DNA from: a virus
Reading direction: 5' to 3' (one strand)
Virus record (IMG/VR): IMGVR_UViG_3300020180_000654
Coordinates: 1 to 20,712 of that record
DNA length: 20,712 nt
Below, in pieces: positions 11,487 through 20,042 of the stretch (its first letter is position 1; the number at the start of each line of letters is the position of its first letter). The position numbers and the translations under genes are program-made. The notes beneath the pieces were generated by a model, which saw only the letters and a program-made list of their open reading frames with translations, searched no databases and had not been told where the DNA came from.

Positions 11487-11891
11487 TTACAGCCTCCAGA
11501 CGTAGACCCATGTGCCGCTCTTGTAGGGATGCGGCTCAAAACCCGTCAGCCAGGCCATGCGCTCACCCGGCAGATGGCCAGGCGCGACACAGGCCGTCAC
11601 CACCACACCATCCTGAGCCAGACCGCGCAGCGTTAACTGCGCCGTACGCACCAGCGCCCGCATGAACCGCCGCGCTTGAGGCCCAAGCGTCAGCGCAAAT
11701 TCCCGGCTCCCGTCCTCAAACCGCCAGAGATAGACAACGGCCAGCAGTTCACCGGCAGGACTGCGCACCGCATAACTGTCCGACGCGTTGCGCATCTTCA
11801 GCACAGCCTTGCGCCCCCAACGTGTTGGCGGCGCCAGCGTCAGGCAATCATCGACAGGCGCAGGAGATTCGACGGGAAGAGCGGGCAGCAT
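11487..11891 (-). CDS. Hypothetical protein with acetyltransferase-like pattern
   Basis: The protein has 134 residues; its ATG overlaps the TerL stop by one base (TGATG). The sequence alternates strands and helices: SYAVRSPAGELLAVVYLWRF, then RFMRALVRTAQLTLRGL, VVVTACVAPGHLPGERMAWLTGFEPHPY and a final GTWVYVWRL. The order 'strand, helix, strand with V-A-x-x-H/P, helix, W-x-x-x-G-F' is reminiscent of the C-terminal half of GNAT-fold proteins that are common near phage TerL/portal genes. The canonical acetyl-CoA loop (R/Q-x-x-G-x-G/A) is not visible, so activity is doubtful. Alternatives are a structural protein with the same fold or an unrelated family. Confidence 0.55.
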   Translation of the reverse strand: MLPALPVESPAPVDDCLTLAPPTRWGRKAVLKMRNASDSYAVRSPAGELLAVVYLWRFEDGSREFALTLGPQARRFMRALVRTAQLTLRGLAQDGVVVTACVAPGHLPGERMAWLTGFEPHPYKSGTWVYVWRL

Positions 11892-13468
11892 CAGAAAAGC
11901 TTGATGTCGGCCATGCGGTCACGCGGGCGCGCCTTGGCTCCCTGCCGGATGCCAACCACATTGCCCGGGCGGCCAAGCCGCGCCGCGTCCTCGATCACAC
12001 CGAAACGCCCGCGATGGCCCAGCGTGATGTACTGCAGGGCATCATGCGGGTGCGAATAGGCGTTTTTCGCCACGGCCAGCACATCCGTTGCGCCCGCCGA
12101 AGCCTGTTTCGTCAGCTTGTAGTGGGCCGCGAAGCCGCCGATCAGGATTTCACAGCTGGGGCAGATCAGCAGCCGTTCCGTGTTGCCGTCAATCGGGTGG
12201 CCCAGATACCACCGCACCGATTCCTGCCGGATGGCCGGTTCATTCGACGGCGCGGGCAGGATAGACAGGTTAAGCCCTCGCGCCACCGTTTCCATGAAGG
12301 CCAGTTCCCCGGCCTGCCGGTCAGCACCCCAGAAGGCGGAAGGATCGCCAAAGCTCTCGCTGACAGCGCAGCCGGCAAAGCGTGACAGCAGCACTTCCAG
12401 CACCATCTGCGAGAACCGCGCCGGGCCGGTTCCGGGCTCCGCACAGATCTCACTCAGGATGCGCAACTGACCGGTGGGCATGAATTGCACGATTGCCGCC
12501 GCCGGACTGCCGCCCGCATCGAGGCCGATTCCCAGCGGAATGCCCGGCGCAGGCGCCAGCACCTGATCAGCCACATGCCGCTGCATCGAGAATTCCGGAT
12601 AGACCGGCTTTCCGTCCAGCGCATAGCCGAATTCGCCATGCACCATGCGCCGCACGATATGATCCGGCTGCGTTGCGGCCTCAAGCTCGTAGCTTGAGCG
12701 CGGCTTTCCAACGCGGTTTTCTGCATTTGCAGACAGGCCGGACGGCTGACGGAACAGGTTGAAGCCCGGCACCTTCTCCTTGACGCAGAAGCGGTAAACC
12801 CAGTTGTCGAGGCCCGGCGGGTTCATATCCCCCCAGACCATGCGCGGCAGGATGATTTCATTCGGGTCCGCCGTCAGGCCCATCAGCCTGAAGGCCTCAC
12901 GCCCATCACGTGACACGCGGTCCAGCTCCTGCGGGGCAATGTCTTCCACCCGGGGATAGCGCCCCGTGCGCTGGAACATCAGGCCCGGCACCCGTTCATC
13001 CAGCATGTCGCATTCATTCAGCCAGGCCGCCGAAACCTGATAACCCTTGATGAACTGCTCAATGTTGTGATCACCAAGCGCCCCCGTTTCCATGATCAGC
13101 TCAATGTTGACCAACCCGACCCCGGGCCGCCTCGCCTGCCACCGCAGCACGTGCTTCACAGGCCTGTCCTGCCCGCCCGAATGTTCCACGGTCCATGGAT
13201 GGTTCACCGGGAAAGCTTCATACCAGCTGGCCAGCGCGGTTCTGGCAAAGTCACGGTATGTGTCGCGGATGCAAGCCACCTTCACCCGCACCCAGCCATC
13301 TTTGCACACGGGGAAATACGTTGAGGCCATCAGCGGCCCCTTCATCACGCTTGCCACCGTCTTGCCGGACCCCGCCGGGCCCATGATCAGGTCAATCGGC
13401 CCCCGTGACCAGAGGAACTTTTCCCCCACAGGCCCAGGCGGCTGGTAGTGCGTGACGTCGATTCCCAA
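11891..13468 (-). CDS. Terminase large subunit (packaging ATPase and nuclease)
   Basis: The protein has 525 residues from a TTG start at 13468. No ATG or GTG exists in frame before the ATPase domain, and AAAGGG lies 8 nt before the TTG; the open frame further upstream is low-complexity read-through of a non-coding gap. Walker A is GPAGSGKT (30-37) preceded by YQPPGPVGEKFLWSRGP, and Walker B with catalytic Glu is AAWLNE (E152). The RNase H-like nuclease begins with GIGLDAGGSPAA (D317), has a middle acidic site near D375 (GDPS), and ends with HPHDALQY (D476). The protein pumps DNA into the prohead through the portal and cuts the concatemer. The gene is coupled downstream by TGATG. The start codon is the only uncertain part. 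Confidence 0.93.
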   Translation of the reverse strand: MGIDVTHYQPPGPVGEKFLWSRGPIDLIMGPAGSGKTVASVMKGPLMASTYFPVCKDGWVRVKVACIRDTYRDFARTALASWYEAFPVNHPWTVEHSGGQDRPVKHVLRWQARRPGVGLVNIELIMETGALGDHNIEQFIKGYQVSAAWLNECDMLDERVPGLMFQRTGRYPRVEDIAPQELDRVSRDGREAFRLMGLTADPNEIILPRMVWGDMNPPGLDNWVYRFCVKEKVPGFNLFRQPSGLSANAENRVGKPRSSYELEAATQPDHIVRRMVHGEFGYALDGKPVYPEFSMQRHVADQVLAPAPGIPLGIGLDAGGSPAAAIVQFMPTGQLRILSEICAEPGTGPARFSQMVLEVLLSRFAGCAVSESFGDPSAFWGADRQAGELAFMETVARGLNLSILPAPSNEPAIRQESVRWYLGHPIDGNTERLLICPSCEILIGGFAAHYKLTKQASAGATDVLAVAKNAYSHPHDALQYITLGHRGRFGVIEDAARLGRPGNVVGIRQGAKARPRDRMADIKLF

Positions 13469-13617
13469 ACCCGATGCCCTTTCCCGAGCGCAGGCGGGCG
13501 CCCCGCACCCTTTCCCGGCCCCCTCATCATGAACCGGCGGGTTCCGCGCCAAGTGCGCGCAGGCAGGATCAACGGGCGAAGCCGGTGTGTGTGAGGCAGC
13601 ACACCCCTGGGGAGGGG

Positions 13618-13676
13618 CCGGCCTGCGGTTTTGAAGGCGCGGCGCGGCCAGGCCGCGCCCGCCGGGCGCAGGCCGG
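13618..13676. repeat. Nested inverted repeats (10-bp outer stem, inner GC hairpin)
   Basis: The outer arms CCGGCCTGCG (13618-13627) and CGCAGGCCGG (13667-13676) are perfect. Inside lies GGCGCGGCC-A-GGCCGCGCC (13641-13659), also perfect; in RNA it would form about 7 bp with a 5-nt loop. The double structure fits a cruciform or a strong RNA fold. Confidence 0.75.
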
Positions 13677-13769
13677 AGGCGCCAGCCATCCGGCCAGGGG
13701 CGCCACCCCGCCAGCCGCACCCGGCCCGGATCGAGGGGCTTGCGGCGCTTCCCGGCGCTGACTGGAGCC

Positions 13770-13896: not shown

Positions 13897-14517
13897 TTAG
13901 ATGCCGTCATCATCCCCGGCATCGGCCACACCGCCGGTGATATCGATGGTCTTGCGCCCATCCTCCTGCCGCGCTGGCCCCTGCTGGATGACGAGGACCC
14001 CCATCGACTGGCTGGACACGTTGACCTCCTGCGGTCTGCGGCTCTCGAAATACGGCATCAGCTCCGCATTGGCCCGCATCACCAGCTGCGCCGCCTCATG
14101 CGCCTTGCAGCTCAACTCTGCCGCCAGCGCCTTCGGGTCCGCATTGGCCATATCCGCCAGATTGAGCCCCGGATGCCGGTAGCCCTTGGCCAGGAGGTAA
14201 TCCCGGAACAGCTGATTGGCCTTGTTTTTTGAGCCCTTAGGCCTCCCCGCCCCGCGCCCTTTGGCCGCCGCGAATGTATCCGCGACATGGCGCACCGGCC
14301 CGGCGAAGAGGCATTCCGGCTCATCCGCATCATCGAGCAGGGACAACTGACCGCCGCCCTCGTCCTGCCCGGCGATCAGCCCGGCCAGATCCGCCAGCGC
14401 ATCTCCGGCCAGCGCCTTGCCAGCCCCAATCTTGGCCTCCCGCTCCGCCGCCGCCCCCGCGTGTGCGCCCCTCCCCACGTCAAAATCGGCTGCATTATCA
14501 TCGTCTTGGCCTGCCAT
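13897..14517 (-). CDS. Putative terminase small subunit
   Basis: The protein has 206 residues from ATG 14517, the first gene of the leftward packaging/virion operon. Residues 1-70 are acidic and Ala-rich. A basic GRGAGRPKGSKNKANQLF segment at about 88-104 is an AT-hook-like DNA-binding patch (G-R-P-K-G). It is followed by a helical core with DPKALAAELSCKAHEAAQLVMRANAELMPYFESRRPQEVNV; the closing 'LMPY...RRP..V' pattern is typical of small terminase-like proteins. The small subunit recognises the packaging site and hands DNA to TerL. It lies next to TerL, separated by a structured 428-nt gap that may be its target. The family link is moderate: position plus the GRPKGS and MPY motifs. Confidence 0.68.
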   Translation of the reverse strand: MAGQDDDNAADFDVGRGAHAGAAAEREAKIGAGKALAGDALADLAGLIAGQDEGGGQLSLLDDADEPECLFAGPVRHVADTFAAAKGRGAGRPKGSKNKANQLFRDYLLAKGYRHPGLNLADMANADPKALAAELSCKAHEAAQLVMRANAELMPYFESRRPQEVNVSSQSMGVLVIQQGPARQEDGRKTIDITGGVADAGDDDGI

Positions 14518-14543: not shown

Positions 14544-14789
14544 GGTTAGGAAATCTGCTCCGGCACCGCCGTTCCTAACCGCAACCTAACCGCGAAAACT
14601 CAATGAAATCAGATATATATATCTCCCGGTTAGGAGTTAGGTGGTTAGGAAGGTTCGCGTATGCACGCGCGCGCGTGTACGAAACAACTCTATAACGGGC
14701 CTAACCACCTAACCGCCTCGCCATCTCATTGATTTTTCAGGAAAAACACGGTTAGGAGCAACCTAACCGAACCTAACCGGAGCTAACCG
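14544..14789. repeat. GGTTAGG/CCTAACC repeat array, candidate replication origin
   Basis: Nine exact 7-mers occur: GGTTAGG at 14544, 14628, 14643 and 14750, and CCTAACC at 14574, 14585, 14700, 14708, 14762 and 14772 (ten counting all listed starts), plus one-mismatch copies at 14635 and 14782. Copies sit in clusters 7-11 bp apart and in both orientations. GTTAGGTGGTTAGG (14636-14649) and CCTAACCACCTAAC (14700-14713) form a perfect 14-bp inverted repeat around a 50-bp centre. That centre holds a 26-bp uninterrupted alternating pyrimidine-purine tract (14656-14681). A 14-bp AT palindrome, AGATATATATATCT, lies at 14611-14624. Short TCAATGA/TCATTGA elements (14600, 14726) are also mirrored. No gene lies here. 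Clustered iterons, an AT-rich element and a large dyad next to the replication genes are what an origin or a partition/packaging site would look like. Confidence 0.7.
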
Positions 14790-14883: not shown

Positions 14884-14915
14884 GCCGGGCAAAAGCCCGG
14901 CGGAAGCTGGGCTTT
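14884..14915. terminator. Mutually exclusive hairpins, possible terminator/antiterminator
   Basis: GCCGGGC-AAAA-GCCCGGC (14884-14901) overlaps AAAGCCC/GGGCTTT (14892-14898 with 14909-14915, 10-nt loop). Only one can form. On the minus strand the second stem ends in CTTTT, weakly terminator-like. Between 14790 and 14883 I see nothing else. Confidence 0.45.
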
Positions 14916-14946
14916 CATCAGGCGCGGGCTCCGCTTAAAATCCTCA

Positions 14947-15016
14947 GGGCGGGGGACGGGAGAGGGTGTTAAGTGCGGTGGCGGAAATGGCTGGAAACGA
15001 GGGGCGGGGGACGGGA
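14947..15016 (+). repeat. Direct repeat of a 15-bp ribosome-binding block
   Basis: GGGCGGGGGACGGGA is repeated exactly at 14947-14961 and 15002-15016. The second copy supplies the purine-rich start region of the 81-aa gene and ends on the A of its ATG. The 55-bp spacing suggests a local duplication of a translation-initiation region. Confidence 0.7.
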
Positions 15017-15019
15017 TGA
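14966..15019 (+). CDS. Possible 17-codon leader ORF
   Basis: GTG 14966 opens a 17-residue frame (VLSAVAEMAGNEGRGTG) whose TGA overlaps the next gene's ATG (ATGA). GACGGGAGAG precedes it. The 15-bp block GGGCGGGGGACGGGA occurs before this start (14947-14961) and again before the next one (15002-15016), so both would use the same ribosome-binding context. It may be a translational-coupling leader or simply chance in GC-rich DNA. Confidence 0.25.
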   Translation: MLSAVAEMAGNEGRGTG

Positions 15020-15261
15020 CACGGCGCGAATTTGCGTCTCCCTATCTGTCAGACAGGGCAGGCACCATCATCGGCATCACGTGTGCGGCCTGCGGCCTGA
15101 GCAGGCAATATGAGGCTGACGGCCTGCTGCAGCGCCTGGGCGATATCTGCCTTCCGGACCTGCCGCAGCGCATCGCGAGGGCCGAGGGCTGCACCCGGCC
15201 GCCACGGCTCTCAGATTGGGAGAACGGTTGTCAGGCCCGGTTGAACCAGCCAGCGGAATAA
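15016..15261 (+). CDS. Small zinc-ribbon-like hypothetical protein
   Basis: The protein has 81 residues. ATG 15016 is taken over the longer frame from 14842 because it is directly preceded by GGGGGACGGG and the extension is low complexity. ITCAACGLSRQYEADGLLQRLGDICLPDLPQRIARAEGC carries a CxxC, then two spaced Cys. This pattern recurs in small alphaproteobacterial and phage proteins of unknown function that look like half zinc ribbons. The last residues, QARLNQPAE, are nearly identical to the end of the Xre-type protein 800 bp downstream, encoded by a 29-bp direct repeat. The gene points opposite to both flanking operons and lies just before the regulated promoter. Function is unknown; DNA binding is possible but not shown. 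Confidence 0.65.
   Translation: MTRREFASPYLSDRAGTIIGITCAACGLSRQYEADGLLQRLGDICLPDLPQRIARAEGCTRPPRLSDWENGCQARLNQPAE
15233..15261 (+). repeat. 29-bp direct repeat, left copy
   Basis: This copy matches 16033-16061 at 26 of 29 positions, exactly 800 bp apart. Both copies encode ARLNQPA[E/K] plus the TAA stop in frame. The left copy ends 2 bp before the first operator. Confidence 0.9.
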
Positions 15262-15263
15262 GA

Positions 15264-15316
15264 ATGCACTCAAACGTGCATTTTATGTTGACGCCATGCA
15301 CTGAAACGTGCATATT
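15264..15316 (+). promoter_or_regulatory. Promoter with two palindromic operators
   Basis: Two 18-bp sites, ATGCACTCAAACGTGCAT (15264-15281) and ATGCACTGAAACGTGCAT (15296-15313), differ at one base. Each has 6-bp inverted arms (ATGCAC/GTGCAT) around a 6-nt spacer. Their starts are 32 bp apart, about three helical turns, so a bound regulator would sit on the same face. A -35-like TTGACG (15288-15293) lies between them, and a -10-like CATATT (15311-15316) is 17 bp downstream. The second operator therefore fills the promoter spacer, a repressor position. An extra half-site-like TGCATTC follows at 15316. The most likely ligand is the Xre-type protein at the end of the same operon. Confidence 0.85.
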
Positions 15317-15363
15317 GCATTCATGAGGTTGAGACAACGCCTCGCAGACAAGGAGTAAAGACC

Positions 15364-15618
15364 ATGAACCGCAATTACGAAAACCCCGCCGTTGCTGCTG
15401 ACTGGGCGCAGAGCCGCGAAACCGACATGGCCGTTGCAACTGCAATCCACGCCATAGCCGACAGCAAGCGCACCGCCGAAGCCATCTGGGAGGCCCCGAC
15501 GCAGGCAGAATGGCAGCATGTGGAAATGGCAGTGGCCGAGTACGTGGCAAATGGCGACTTCGCTTTCGATCCCGCAGGTTACTGCTGGGGCGCCGAAACC
15601 ATCCACATTGAACAGTAA
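15364..15618 (+). CDS. Small acidic protein, candidate anti-defence (Acr-like) gene 1
   Basis: The protein has 84 residues from ATG 15364, with AAGGAG 8 nt upstream; it is the first gene behind the twin-operator promoter. The sequence is acidic (about 14 Asp/Glu against 4 Lys/Arg) and largely helical: AQSRETDMAVATAIHAIADSK, then PTQAEWQHVEMAVAEYVANG, ending in an aromatic stretch (GDFAFDPAGYCWGAETIHIEQ). I recognise no family. Together with the next small acidic gene and a terminal HTH gene it has the layout of anti-CRISPR operons, whose first genes are usually unrelated small acidic proteins. That is inference from context. A host-takeover or immunity protein is equally possible. Confidence 0.75.
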   Translation: MNRNYENPAVAADWAQSRETDMAVATAIHAIADSKRTAEAIWEAPTQAEWQHVEMAVAEYVANGDFAFDPAGYCWGAETIHIEQ

Positions 15619-15625
15619 GGCAACA

Positions 15626-15645
15626 GGCGGCGCACCAGCGCCGCC
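15626..15645 (+). other. Intercistronic hairpin in the plus-strand cassette
   Basis: GGCGGCGC (15626-15633) and GCGCCGCC (15638-15645) form a perfect 8-bp stem with an ACCA loop, between the first and second cassette genes. There is no U-run after it. It may partly attenuate read-through or protect the first transcript end, so that gene 1 is made in excess. Confidence 0.65.
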
Positions 15646-15670
15646 CCACCACCAAACAGGAGAAACGAAA

Positions 15671-15889
15671 ATGACCTACAGCCTTTTTCACCTGTGCAAT
15701 GGCAACAAGACATTGGTTCGCGCATTTGAAGAATTCGAGGCAGCCAAAAATCATGCCAACTCACTGTTCGGCGATTTTGTGGCATGTGAAGAAGACGAGG
15801 ACAACGCAGGCTCCTTCGATATTCTGACGCTCAATGGCGAGGTGCTCGCAATCGAGCCAAACTGGTATGGCGCTAATGACCCCCGCTGA
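15671..15889 (+). CDS. Small acidic protein, candidate anti-defence gene 2
   Basis: The protein has 72 residues from ATG 15671 with CAGGAGA 7-8 nt upstream; the longer frame from 15518 overlaps gene 1 and lacks support. It is strongly acidic (about 13 Asp/Glu to 4 Lys/Arg), with the cluster CEEDED near residue 39-44. The predicted fold is one helix (VRAFEEFEAAKNHANSLFG) followed by strands (FDILTLNGEVLAIEPNW). Small 'helix plus hairpin' acidic proteins of this kind are common among uncharacterised phage genes. I recognise no named family. Its end overlaps the start of the Xre-type gene by 14 nt, so the two are co-translated. Confidence 0.75.
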   Translation: MTYSLFHLCNGNKTLVRAFEEFEAAKNHANSLFGDFVACEEDEDNAGSFDILTLNGEVLAIEPNWYGANDPR

Positions 15890-16061
15890 CCTCACCGCAT
15901 GGCGCCAGCGCACCGGCCTCAACCGCCTGCAGGCCGCAGAAGCGCTAGGCATCAGCCGCAACACAATCACGCGGATGGAGGCCGGAACGTCAGAGATACC
16001 GGCCTACATCGAGCTGGCAACCGAAGCGCTTGAGGCCCGGCTGAACCAGCCAGCCAAATAA
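15876..16061 (+). CDS. Small Xre-type HTH regulator (Aca-like)
   Basis: The protein has 61 residues from ATG 15876; an ATG three codons earlier (15867) is an alternative, and neither has a strong ribosome-binding site, which fits coupling to the overlapping upstream gene. Residues 3-50 form a Cro/CI-type helix-turn-helix: LTAWRQRTGLNRLQAAEALGI, then the recognition helix SRNTITRMEAG. Such single-domain proteins dimerise and bind palindromes of the kind found at the operon's promoter (15264-15313), so autorepression is likely. This position and size match Aca proteins, which repress anti-CRISPR operons. The C-terminus ARLNQPAK repeats the end of the 81-aa protein upstream. The HTH is clear; the Aca comparison is inference from layout. 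Confidence 0.82.
   Translation: MTPADLTAWRQRTGLNRLQAAEALGISRNTITRMEAGTSEIPAYIELATEALEARLNQPAK
16033..16061 (+). repeat. 29-bp direct repeat, right copy
   Basis: This is the partner of 15233-15261 (3 mismatches). It forms the 3' end of the Xre-type gene, including the stop, and the terminator begins 3 bp after it. The two copies therefore bracket the whole promoter-plus-genes unit. Confidence 0.9.
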
Positions 16062-16063
16062 CA

Positions 16064-16099
16064 AAAAGCCCCGCTCACCGGCGGGGCTTTTCTGTTTTT
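16064..16099. terminator. Bidirectional rho-independent terminator
   Basis: AAAAGCCCCGC (16064-16074) pairs perfectly with GCGGGGCTTTT (16081-16091) around a 6-nt loop and is followed by CTGTTTTT. The A-run on the left gives a U-run on the minus strand as well. It separates the plus-strand cassette from the convergent helicase gene ending at 16120. Confidence 0.92.
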
Positions 16100-16119
16100 C
16101 CGCCATCCTGCGGCCTAGA

Positions 16120-17967
16120 TCACTCCACCCCTTCCGGGCTCGCCCGGTCATAGGCGCCCAGGTCGATCAGCAGGCAGAACTTCGCCACCTTGTCGATCTT
16201 CACCGTGTGGTGCCGCTGCTCCAGGCCGCGCAGCACAATGGACTCGGGCGCCTGTTTCAGCGCGTTCCACCAGCCGCCCTCATAAAAATCCGTCTCCTGA
16301 AAGATCTTCACCAGCGCCGGGTGCTGCGCCGGCACACACAGATAGGGCCCCGTTCCGGGCGCTCCTGCCTTCTTGAGGCCCAGCCCGGCCATGGCCAGAT
16401 CCTCCCGCGCATAAACCAGATCCAGATCCCCGCGCTGGAACTCAACGAGGATGCGCCCCACGCTCAGCCGCTTGCCGCCCCGGTGGCTGTCGATCGGCGC
16501 AGACAGCAGGTGCTCCAGGCACTCCAGCCACTTCTCGGTCTGCTCCGCCCGCTCCGCCTTGAAAGCGCTGGCCAGCGTTTCCGCCAGGCGCTGCTGGTCC
16601 GCCACGTCCAGCCCCATCTGCTCCAGCGCATCCGGCCCCAGCAACAGCTCAGCCGCTGCCAGCAGCGTGCCATAGGTGTCCATGGCGCGCGCATCAAAAC
16701 CCGCCAGATGCAACGTGCGCTTCCAGTCCGGCAGGATACGGGCGCGGAAATCGCTCCACCCGTCCATGATCTGCCGCAGCAGCATGCGGCCATCCGTGTC
16801 CCGCACCACCGGCTCCCGGCTGTGCCGTTTGTCCAGCCGCTTGAGGTTCAAGAGCGCCATGCGCGTCTTGTCCTGCACCCCCATGGGCGGGGGGATGATG
16901 GCCGAGAACATGAAGGCACTGCGCGCCTGAAACGTGGTGCCCTCGTGGTTCGCGCCGCCACGCGCCATGCGCCCGCCGGAAGAGGCAAGCCGCGCCAGCT
17001 CGATCACGCTGGTGGCTTTGCTGCTGCCCTTCTTGGCCTCCAGCTCATCCACCGTCACCGGCAGGCTGTCATGGCCCACGTGCTGATAGATGCCTGCAGC
17101 TGTCGTATCCACCAGCGCAATCAGCGAATCCCCCAGGAGCGCTTGCGTGATCCTGTGCAGCGTCGATTTGCCGACGCCCGCTCCACCCGTGGTGAAAACG
17201 ATAGGCCGCCAGTCCAGCGCACCGCCCATGAAGGCGCAGGCCACCCAGCCCAGAAACAGCACAGGATCCAGCCACGGCCGTTCCCAGTTCCAGGTCTTCA
17301 GGTCTTCAAGGATCGACTGCGCCGGGCTGTCTTCAATGCTCACAGGCGTGGCCCATGGCCGGTCAACATCCGGCGCACGCGTGTACAGCGCCCGGTCCAT
17401 TTCGCCCGGTGCCGCCCGGCCCAGCTCGCCCTTGGCCGAGGCGCACCACAGCCATTCCCCCGAATGCCAGATGAAATCTCCATTCGCCGCCATCCAGCCG
17501 CCGCGACCGCGCACGCGCTTTTCCGGGTCGAACAGGCCCCGCCGCTTGCCTTCGGCAATCAGCGCGAAGGCGCATTTGTCGCGCTCCAGCCGCTTCACCT
17601 TCGGCGGCAGAGGGTTGCCGTCGCTGTCCTTTCCGCCCGCACCAAAGCCCGGCCAGGCCCAGAAGGCATAATTCAGCTGCGGCGCGAACAGGTTGGCCAG
17701 CGTCGAGGCGTCCCACTTCTCCACCGCGTGCAGCTGGCCCGTGGCCGAAACGCAATAGGTCACATTGCCATTGTGCCCCAGCACACGCACCGGGCAGTCC
17801 GGCGGCAGGCAATCCCAGGGCGCGCCATCCCATTCGCCGGGCTTCACCCCATCACGCGGCAAGTTCGGGTCCGGGTCCAGAATGCCCGCCCGGTCTTCCT
17901 CAGCCGTCGCCTCCAGAAAATGCGCCCGGATTGCCTGAATGCCTTTTTGTGTTGTCCGCCGCGCCAC
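16120..17967 (-). CDS. Replicative helicase-like P-loop ATPase
   Basis: The protein has 615 residues from a GTG start at 17967; an in-frame TGA lies four codons upstream, so no longer start is available, and GGGAGCAGG precedes it. Residues 30-105 form an N-terminal domain (ILDPDPNLPRDGVKPGEWDG...CPVRVLGHNGNVTYCV). The ATPase core has Walker A GGAGVGKST (261-269), a Walker B-like LPVTVDELE (D307, E308) and a sensor strand AFMFSAIIPPP (351-361) followed by R369. The layout resembles the phage D5/SF3-type helicases that pair with a separate primase. The Toprim primase is two genes upstream in the same operon. A tandem hairpin repeat lies just ahead of the start, and transcription ends at the bidirectional terminator. 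The ATPase is certain; the helicase subclass is not. Confidence 0.82.
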   Translation of the reverse strand: MARRTTQKGIQAIRAHFLEATAEEDRAGILDPDPNLPRDGVKPGEWDGAPWDCLPPDCPVRVLGHNGNVTYCVSATGQLHAVEKWDASTLANLFAPQLNYAFWAWPGFGAGGKDSDGNPLPPKVKRLERDKCAFALIAEGKRRGLFDPEKRVRGRGGWMAANGDFIWHSGEWLWCASAKGELGRAAPGEMDRALYTRAPDVDRPWATPVSIEDSPAQSILEDLKTWNWERPWLDPVLFLGWVACAFMGGALDWRPIVFTTGGAGVGKSTLHRITQALLGDSLIALVDTTAAGIYQHVGHDSLPVTVDELEAKKGSSKATSVIELARLASSGGRMARGGANHEGTTFQARSAFMFSAIIPPPMGVQDKTRMALLNLKRLDKRHSREPVVRDTDGRMLLRQIMDGWSDFRARILPDWKRTLHLAGFDARAMDTYGTLLAAAELLLGPDALEQMGLDVADQQRLAETLASAFKAERAEQTEKWLECLEHLLSAPIDSHRGGKRLSVGRILVEFQRGDLDLVYAREDLAMAGLGLKKAGAPGTGPYLCVPAQHPALVKIFQETDFYEGGWWNALKQAPESIVLRGLEQRHHTVKIDKVAKFCLLIDLGAYDRASPEGVE

Positions 17968-18061: not shown

Positions 18062-18694
18062 TCAGGCCCAGCTGACCTTGTCGCCCGGCGCATCAGCTGG
18101 CAGCAGCATGTCCGAGGGCTCGCCAATCCAGCGCGGACGCTCCGGCGTCACATCGGCAATCGCCTGATCCACCTCCAGCGCATTGACAGCTGTCAGCACT
18201 GCCCAGGCGATGCCCGCCAGCGCCACGTTGCGGCTGGTGCCCTCCAGCGGCAGTCCGCTCATGCGCAGCTGCATCACCACGGCGGCAATGCCCATGCCGC
18301 CGTCCCGGCCAATCAGGCACGACATGGCCGCCACCTGCTCCAGGCTCAGGCACGCTGCGTCCGCGTCATTCGCCAGCGCCCGCGCCACCGCGCGCTGCGC
18401 CCGGAAGGCTGCCCAGACGGATGGCAGATAAGTCACAACCACTCCGCCAGCGTCGTCATCCTGTTGAGCTGCGTCATCAGCTTCCGGCGCCGGATCCGCC
18501 CGCTCACAATCCGCCAACCCAGCGCCGTTGTGTTCAGCGTCCGGCGCCACGCCGCCTGCATCTTCGGCAGGTGCAACCGACAGATCTGCCGCCCCTTCAG
18601 GTTCTCCGGCTCCAGCCACAGCCGCTGTTTCTTCCCCTGCAGCCGCCGCTTTGGCCTGTTCGTCTGCATCATCGCTTTTCCCTTTCCGGCTCAT
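18062..18694 (-). CDS. Hypothetical replication-operon protein
   Basis: The protein has 210 residues; its ATG overlaps the primase stop by one base (TGATG). Residues 1-85 are low-complexity Ala/Asp/Glu. Residues 86-210 look folded: VVVTYLPSVWAAFRAQRAVARALANDADAACLSLEQVAAMSCLIGRDGGMGIAAVVMQLRM, followed by LAGIAWAVLTAVNALEVDQAIADVTPERPRWIG. I do not recognise the family. Lying between primase and helicase with coupled translation suggests a replication accessory (loader or single-strand binding partner), but no motif supports a specific one. The disordered acidic head could be a protein-interaction tail. Confidence 0.65.
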   Translation of the reverse strand: MSRKGKSDDADEQAKAAAAGEETAAVAGAGEPEGAADLSVAPAEDAGGVAPDAEHNGAGLADCERADPAPEADDAAQQDDDAGGVVVTYLPSVWAAFRAQRAVARALANDADAACLSLEQVAAMSCLIGRDGGMGIAAVVMQLRMSGLPLEGTSRNVALAGIAWAVLTAVNALEVDQAIADVTPERPRWIGEPSDMLLPADAPGDKVSWA

Positions 18695-19830
18695 CAGAAG
18701 TCACCTTTCAGAAGATCGTTGAAATCACTGCCCGCGTGCGGCCGCATCAGGTCGAGCGGCGGCCCGCAGGCCTCAAGCGCGGCCAGCGCCGCCTCAAGCT
18801 GTCGTTGCGCCTGCGGGTTGTCCCAGTCATTTTCCCCGGCCACCAGCGTGCGGGAAACGAAGGGGAACCCCACCGGGCAAGCGCCAATTCCGTTGATCGA
18901 GCCGCAGGCCCACACGCGCGCCTCGGGGATGGCCAGCGCCAGCGCGTCCCCGGTCTCGCGACCTTCGGAGAGGATCAGCGGGTGCCCGGCCTGCGCCTGC
19001 GGCGGCGCCGCGCCTTCCGGGCCATGGGTCAGCCACATGGCCGCCCCGCCCGCCATGCCGAACATCAGACGCGGGCTGCGGCCCGCGCCGGGGTCCGCCT
19101 TCGCCGGGCGCACCGGGTCCAGAAACGTCACATGCACCGCGCGGAAAATGCCGGTTGCCGTGCGCATGGCAGAGCAGATGGCCGGAAAGCGCGGCCCGTC
19201 CGCCACCGTCACCCGCCGCTGCCGCCCGTCCGGCCCGGCCTCGATCCGCCATTGCGCCAGCGGCCAGTATTCCACCGCCGCGCCATAGCGCGCGGTGCTG
19301 CGGTCCCGGTTGACGATGCGGTCAATGTCGATGCCACGCGCCTGCCGGTAATAGGCCCGCGCATGCACCTCCGCCGCGCTGCCCGCGCCTTCGGGCGCAC
19401 CGGACAGGTAGATCTGTTCGGCCATGCGGATGGCCCAGGCCTCGCGCTGGCGGGCGCGCTCGTCGCTCAGCCGCCGTTCCTTGGCCGCCATCTGCGCAAA
19501 GCGCTCCCGCTCTTCCCGGCTCATGCGCTTCAGGCCCAGAAAGTCCCGCGCCAGATCCATCGCCGCCCGGAAATCGTAGCCCTTCACATACTCGGCCAGG
19601 CCGATCACGTCGCCCTTGTCGCCACTGCGCCAGCACTTCCAGGCGCCAATGTCACCCGTCAGCGCCACCTTCAGTTCGGGGCTGGACCGGTCATAATCGC
19701 CGGTCACCGGGTTATAGCTCACCCACAGCCGCCCCTGCCGCCGCCCGTCCGGCAGCAGCAACCGGCACCAGTCCTCAATGCGCAGCTTCAGGCCCTCTTT
19801 CACGTCCTGCACATCACTGCGGCTGGTCAT
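18694..19830 (-). CDS. Toprim-domain DNA primase
   Basis: The protein has 378 residues from ATG 19830, which overlaps the GcrA-like stop by 4 nt (ATGA). Residues 1-100 resemble a primase zinc-finger module: KVALTGDIGAWKCWRSGDKGDVIGLAEY corresponds to the 'F.CF.C...GD.I.' block, but only one Cys remains, so zinc binding is probably lost. The central part is helical linker. The Toprim domain occupies about 284-345: ILSEGRETGDALALA with the catalytic Glu (E289), then VWACGSINGIGA and LVAGENDWDN (the D-x-D-like acidic pair at 333-338). A typical SDFNDLL tail closes the protein. It makes RNA primers for phage DNA synthesis and likely works with the helicase two genes downstream. Family confidence is high. 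Confidence 0.88.
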   Translation of the reverse strand: MTSRSDVQDVKEGLKLRIEDWCRLLLPDGRRQGRLWVSYNPVTGDYDRSSPELKVALTGDIGAWKCWRSGDKGDVIGLAEYVKGYDFRAAMDLARDFLGLKRMSREERERFAQMAAKERRLSDERARQREAWAIRMAEQIYLSGAPEGAGSAAEVHARAYYRQARGIDIDRIVNRDRSTARYGAAVEYWPLAQWRIEAGPDGRQRRVTVADGPRFPAICSAMRTATGIFRAVHVTFLDPVRPAKADPGAGRSPRLMFGMAGGAAMWLTHGPEGAAPPQAQAGHPLILSEGRETGDALALAIPEARVWACGSINGIGACPVGFPFVSRTLVAGENDWDNPQAQRQLEAALAALEACGPPLDLMRPHAGSDFNDLLKGDF

Positions 19831-20042
19831 GCCGCCTCCTCCGCCCGTGCCAAAAACCGCGCATTGCGGATGGCCGCCTGTTCGGACGGGGTTCCGGGGC
19901 CGAACATTACCCGCCGGTGGCAGGCGCAATAGGGCTGGCGCAGGCACGTCACAGGGGCACCGCAGACGAAACGCGGCTCATCCGCCGTCTGCCAAAGCGG
20001 GAAGGCGCACTGGTCTGCCCTCCGGTCCAGAAATCCAACCAT
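19827..20042 (-). CDS. GcrA-like C-terminal zinc-motif protein
   Basis: The protein has 71 residues from ATG 20042, with GGAGG 5 nt upstream; the GTG at 20054 would overlap the ribosome-binding site. It carries C12-A-F-P, C27-G-A-P, and P-Y-C39-x-C41-H42 (QCAFPLWQ...FVCGAPV...QPYCACH). That spacing matches the C-terminal Cys/His motif of GcrA, the alphaproteobacterial transcription factor that acts with sigma-70 at methylated promoters. The N-terminal GcrA DNA-binding helices are absent, so this is a stand-alone motif. It may interfere with or mimic host GcrA, or simply be a small zinc fold. Its end is coupled by ATGA to the primase. Confidence 0.7.
   Translation of the reverse strand: MVGFLDRRADQCAFPLWQTADEPRFVCGAPVTCLRQPYCACHRRVMFGPGTPSEQAAIRNARFLARAEEAA

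Follow-up and report, generated by a model that had tools for sequence, protein, structure and literature searches.

A putative self-repressing phage accessory cassette with the architecture of acr-aca operons, paired operators and exchangeable cargo

Within a 20,712-base stretch of virus DNA, which we read as a phage fragment and refer to as the window, the plus strand of positions 15264-16092 carries what is probably an accessory cassette organised like an acr-aca operon and repressing its own promoter, with exchangeable cargo that would act early against the host and with counter-defence as the leading option for that action. Three things can be read from the DNA, namely the architecture of the cassette, an operator type that matches the recognition helix of the encoded regulator, and the exchange of cargo between relatives; from these we infer the repression itself, the burst kinetics and the function of the cargo.

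The cassette (Table 1) sits between minus-strand primase and small-terminase genes, and its G+C content is locally 0.55-0.60 versus about 0.66 in the flanks. A first-pass annotation of this DNA had put the cassette on the strand opposite to its neighbours, which is borne out by the minus orientation of both the terminase and the primase genes; that the cassette is alone on the plus strand locally is true of these flanking genes and not of the 81-aa open frame just upstream, which is also plus. This frame has no match in phages and none that is convincing in Pfam, PHROGs, NCBIfam or PADLOC, and Rfam and tRNA scans of the whole 20.7-kb record gave no match. The folding of the final stem agrees with the terminator that had been proposed to close the cassette, and the gene said to encode a 61-aa Xre-type helix-turn-helix (HTH) protein does overlap the second small gene, its product scoring above the Pfam cut-offs for both HTH_31 and HTH_3. 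The hairpin between the first and second genes is strong and may set the ratio of the first gene to the HTH protein. Hairpins of similar shape occur in the gap after the first gene at L008 (L numbers denote the loci compared with the window) and in phage RcapNL (L028); the L008 hairpin folds no better than shuffles.

Table 1. Positions of the cassette features and of the neighbouring genes in the window
Feature	Position	Strand	Remarks
Terminase large subunit	11891-13720	minus	
206-aa gene	13897-14517	minus	usual small-terminase position
81-aa open frame upstream of cassette	15016-15261	plus	
32-nt direct repeat, left copy	15233-15264	plus	within 3' end of 81-aa frame
Operator 1, 18-bp palindrome ATGCACTCAAACGTGCAT	15264-15281		GCAC-N6-GTGC type, as before SRN-helix relatives
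Promoter, TTGACG (15288-15293), 17-nt spacer, CATATT (15311-15316)	15288-15316	plus	sigma-70-like
Operator 2, 18-bp palindrome ATGCACTGAAACGTGCAT	15296-15313		32 bp from operator 1
84-aa protein gene	15364-15618	plus	
Hairpin GGCGGCGC-ACCA-GCGCCGCC between genes 1 and 2	15626-15645	plus	folding z -3.7
72-aa acidic protein gene	15671-15889	plus	
61-aa Xre/HTH_31 protein gene, proposed autorepressor	15876-16061	plus	14-nt overlap with 72-aa gene
32-nt direct repeat, right copy	16033-16064	plus	3' end of HTH gene
Terminator stem-loop, then CTGTTTTT	16064-16091	plus	RNA folding z -6.2
Primase-like genes	16120-17967 and 18694-19947	minus	

The promoter had been described as carrying two near-identical 18-bp palindromes, and this is what we find: ATGCACTCAAACGTGCAT and ATGCACTGAAACGTGCAT are the only ATGCAC-N6-GTGCAT sites (at most 1 mismatch) in the 20.7-kb record, as against a mean of 0.10 in shuffles, of which 1 in 100 reached 2, and the second palindrome fills the 17-nt spacer between the -35 and -10 elements. 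TTGACG-17-CATATT is the sole promoter-like site detected within 14900-16200. These observations bear on a reading that casts the HTH protein as a Cro/CI-like life-cycle regulator, governing lysogeny or an early-late switch, and treats the small genes as incidental: paired operators with small Xre proteins are typical of Cro/CI, and the profile of the HTH family matches the 434 repressor, but both operators stand only at the cassette promoter in the record, the scan of 14900-16200 found no divergent promoter, the HTH gene closes its operon, and related phages have other genes at this site. We regard such a switch as very improbable, and autorepression of an accessory cassette remains our preferred account.

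Relatives of the HTH protein were taken from viral contigs, and their recognition helices were compared with the upstream palindromes. All six loci with an SRN helix (the window, L005, L035, L036, L037 and L066) have two GCAY-N6-GTGC sites, and all seven with an APN or AKN helix (L003, L021, L062, L056, L067, L040 and L044) have one or two TCGCA-N4-TGCG sites, with zero crossover among the 13 loci; in shuffled upstream DNA, the frequency of a single site is about 3% for the first type and 0.3% for the second. This sorting of operator by helix gives a Fisher p of 6e-4 without correction for relatedness, a value that overstates independence, since the loci are related by descent and L035/L036 and L021/L062 are close pairs. 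The site falls within the promoter spacer in the window and at L003, L008, L022, L028, L035, L037, L044, L062 and L066; a simple promoter scan did not place it between -35 and -10 at L005, L021, L036, L040, L056, L067 or L068.

The operator can also be used to find the protein. A search of all viral contigs that was blind to protein sequence, for TTGAC, 2-4 bases, TGCAC-N6-GTGCA and TA, returned 21 stretches, 6 of which (L077, L084, L085, L087, L092 and L097) have a family HTH gene 150-830 bp downstream on the same strand; five of these loci are new, since L097 shares a contig with L037, which had been found earlier. Elsewhere among the 1640 ORFs of the 21 stretches there are three matches to the HTH family, all weaker and in two of the same six loci. 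The remaining stretches include near-identical pairs and probable chance hits. The HTH genes of the family often share 4 nt with the small gene before them. Taken at the level of sequence, the helix covariation, the protein-blind search and the recurring architecture strongly support the earlier proposal that the HTH protein is an autorepressor acting on the promoter inverted repeats, i.e. that it would repress the promoter of its own cassette.

We propose that the promoter would fire on entry of the phage DNA, so that the 84-aa and 72-aa cargo and the 61-aa HTH protein would be made; the HTH protein, presumably a dimer, would bind both GCAC-N6-GTGC palindromes as it accumulates, and occupation of the operator in the -35/-10 spacer would block RNA polymerase and confine the cargo to a short burst. 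The cargo would act at this early stage, most likely in counter-defence. The regulator itself looks like a generic shut-off device to which different cargo can be attached, since relatives share the HTH family and carry different cargo.

The arrangement resembles that of the acr-aca operons acrIC7-acrIC6-aca10 (PMC9410881) and acrIF1-aca1 of phage JBD30, in which, likewise, small cargo genes (one or two) are followed at the end of the operon by an HTH gene of about 60 aa, the core promoter holds a single inverted repeat or a pair, and the whole is set in a mobile element. In published Aca families the HTH protein has about 60-65 aa and the core promoter carries one inverted repeat or two (PMC9410906); the window has a late HTH gene of 61 aa that overlaps the preceding gene, and one of its two repeats lies within the core promoter. 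It differs from these operons in that its cargo is without a known anti-CRISPR relative, its HTH protein as a single phmmer query matches no solved Aca, and its operator is ATGCAC-N6-GTGCAT. PADLOC, NCBIfam and Pfam scans of the HTH protein gave generic HTH matches only. The family profile does match Aca10 (7XI5, named in the Aca10 paper, PMC9410881) at E 4e-7, Aca3 at 4e-7, Aca2 at 7e-5 and Aca1 at 3e-3, with the 434 repressor at E 1e-5, in the range of the Aca matches. The comparison supports a protein that works like an Aca, and neither membership of a numbered Aca family nor an anti-CRISPR role for the cargo: the window HTH protein appears to be Aca-like and to join none of the compared Aca1, Aca2, Aca3 and Aca10 families. 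Operon RcapNL_00033-00031 of the Rhodobacter phage RcapNL is alike in having twin promoter palindromes (GTGCGsAAAsCGCAC) before a small acidic protein and then an Xre protein, the latter 51% identical to the window HTH protein over 52 residues; it differs in its cargo and in the third gene that follows the HTH gene.

A strict reading would make the cassette a genuine anti-CRISPR operon: the 84-aa protein, the 72-aa protein or both would inhibit CRISPR-Cas, with the HTH protein as a new Aca. The architecture, size classes and promoter repeats are as in published acr-aca operons (PMC9410906), and at L008, where the operon has a homologue of the 84-aa protein, the promoter palindrome AGGCACAATGTGCCT (positions 321-335 of that locus) is identical over 15 bp to an inverted repeat of the Aca1 operator (PMC9410881), although the HTH protein there is nearer to Aca10, which it matches at E 2e-6. 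However, no cargo matches an Acr model (0 of the 22 cargo proteins scanned against the known anti-CRISPR models of NCBIfam), the same architecture regulates DUF932 and RMF-like cargo, and known acr genes adjoin only 15% of the 2599 Aca-like homologues in one survey (PMC9410906). We consider the strict reading unlikely, and favour the broader one of a self-repressed cassette whose cargo may counter defence in some form. The window palindrome (at most 2 mismatches) is absent from the cassettes of L006, L007 and L008, as would be expected of repressors that each recognise an operator of their own.

Type II toxin-antitoxin systems that have a downstream HTH antitoxin (HigBA, MqsRA) also resemble the cassette in gene order and in the use of palindromes for autoregulation; the small protein would then be a toxin and the HTH protein its autoregulating antitoxin, in the toxin-first order of HigBA. 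In its overlapping genes and its palindromic operator the cassette is like higBA and mqsRA, and its HTH protein is weakly similar to MqsA and other antitoxins. An antitoxin fits its own toxin, whereas the HTH protein here is a bare, lone domain whose family is partnered with many unrelated small proteins across loci; two small genes precede it in the window, and the cargo can be exchanged and does not appear to resemble toxins. Pfam, PHROGs, NCBIfam and PADLOC scans of the upstream cargo genes gave no match to a toxin family. A toxin-antitoxin pair has little to recommend it next to an autorepressor with interchangeable partners.

The cargo can be followed through its own relatives. Those of the 84-aa protein have 54-74% identity at L006, L007, L008, L021-L024 and L068/L069 and 40-43% identity in Methylocystis chromosomes; searches of phages or plasmids gave no match for the protein, and its profile, run across 385 genomes of the Methylocystis class, matched only the centre genome itself. 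Judged by these relatives, the 84-aa protein is a rare, conserved phage family. With an HTH profile built without the 84-aa loci, an HTH gene was found within 260 bp of the homologue at L008, L021, L022 and L068/L069, the 84-aa homologue coming first in each, and L068 was reached from the HTH side alone; the profile found no family HTH gene near the homologue at L006, L007, L023, L024 or the Methylocystis loci. The Methylocystis chromosomes (L014-L020) carry a standalone relative of 90-91 aa, and M. rosea has in addition a second, more distant copy (L032).

Both small genes had been described as having no recognised family, which needs a correction for the 84-aa protein, as 12 of 12 family members match Pfam YccJ (PF13993) weakly, at E up to 1 and at best 1e-5; the window protein itself scores 17.0 bits versus a gathering cut-off of 27 bits. 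Comparison of the family profile with a YccJ protein by hhalign gives E 6e-5. The weak match to this family (E. coli yccJ, near wrbA) covers mainly the N-terminal half of the 84-aa protein, with the shared pattern W..xR.T..AxAI...EaIW; the 84-aa protein differs in falling below the Pfam cut-off, in being phage-borne, and in having an HTH partner in some phages. It is possible, and we keep it as a minority view, that the cassette is self-repressed and that its cargo serves host physiology, with a stress-related function of the YccJ kind, and not counter-defence. The YccJ matches and the standalone chromosomal copies in Methylocystis point this way; the match is nevertheless below the cut-off and mainly confined to the first half of the protein, and the papers listed for YccJ give it no established function. 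The AlphaFold2 model of the 84-aa protein (pLDDT 93.5) has four helices and a beta hairpin; Foldseek searches of PDB and BFVD gave nothing below E 1, which does not by itself make the fold new, and VIA Z is at most 2.6, with no convincing structural match. A bolder proposal, which we put forward tentatively and hold to be doubtful, is that the 84-aa proteins form a new class of counter-defence proteins in phages, related to host YccJ and with a fold not yet on record, and that the HTH family, through its two operator codes, can serve as bait for many phage counter-defence genes.

For the 72-aa protein the description as lacking a recognised family stands, as no relatives were found in viral contigs, phages or PDB; its model is a low-confidence beta-beta-alpha-beta-beta arrangement with no structure match, and we take the gene to be real on account of its reading frame, ribosome-binding site and overlap with the HTH gene. 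Neither window cargo protein matches a PDB fold, though the lack of such matches and of matches to Acr models does not disprove CRISPR-Cas inhibition; the cargo at other loci is unrelated in sequence, and no known counter-defence relative was found for any cargo gene. Counter-defence by the cargo is plausible; anti-CRISPR activity is possible, but no homology supports it.

If the cassette works in this way, the two readable operator codes and the HTH family that goes with them offer a route, from sequence alone, to self-repressed phage accessory cassettes, and the search for an operator within a promoter spacer has already yielded cassettes without protein similarity. Self-repressed accessory cassettes are a common location of anti-CRISPR and other counter-defence genes. 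The related cassettes look like a source of new counter-defence genes, since they carry different small genes under a repressor of this kind, with DNA sites to match. The 84-aa family, which recurs in several phages and has a confident predicted structure with no known fold match, is one concrete candidate. The most useful outcome would be an operator code usable as bait.

The interval that holds the cassette is a variable accessory site, since primase-related phages have other genes there, on the opposite strand and including Bro-N at L025. At the same site in L026 (8683-10224), three genes on the minus strand of that locus encode a DUF932 protein, an RMF/CrpP-like protein of 82 aa and an HTH protein. 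A 32-nt direct repeat brackets the window cassette, its copies 28/32 identical and exactly 800 nt apart, and through its left copy the 81-aa frame ends in RLNQPA, just as the HTH protein does. No comparable bracketing repeat was found at twenty other HTH loci, and the cassette may have arrived or been duplicated through its own tail; since this repeat was seen in the window alone, we discarded the idea that HTH tails serve generally as sites of recombination.

Beside the 206-aa gene in the small-terminase position, ten GGTTAGG motifs in both orientations lie within 235 bp (14544-14778), compared with 0.64 expected in the whole record. This cluster is possibly a replication origin or a packaging site, and GGTTACC/GGTAACC motifs occupy the corresponding place in L027.
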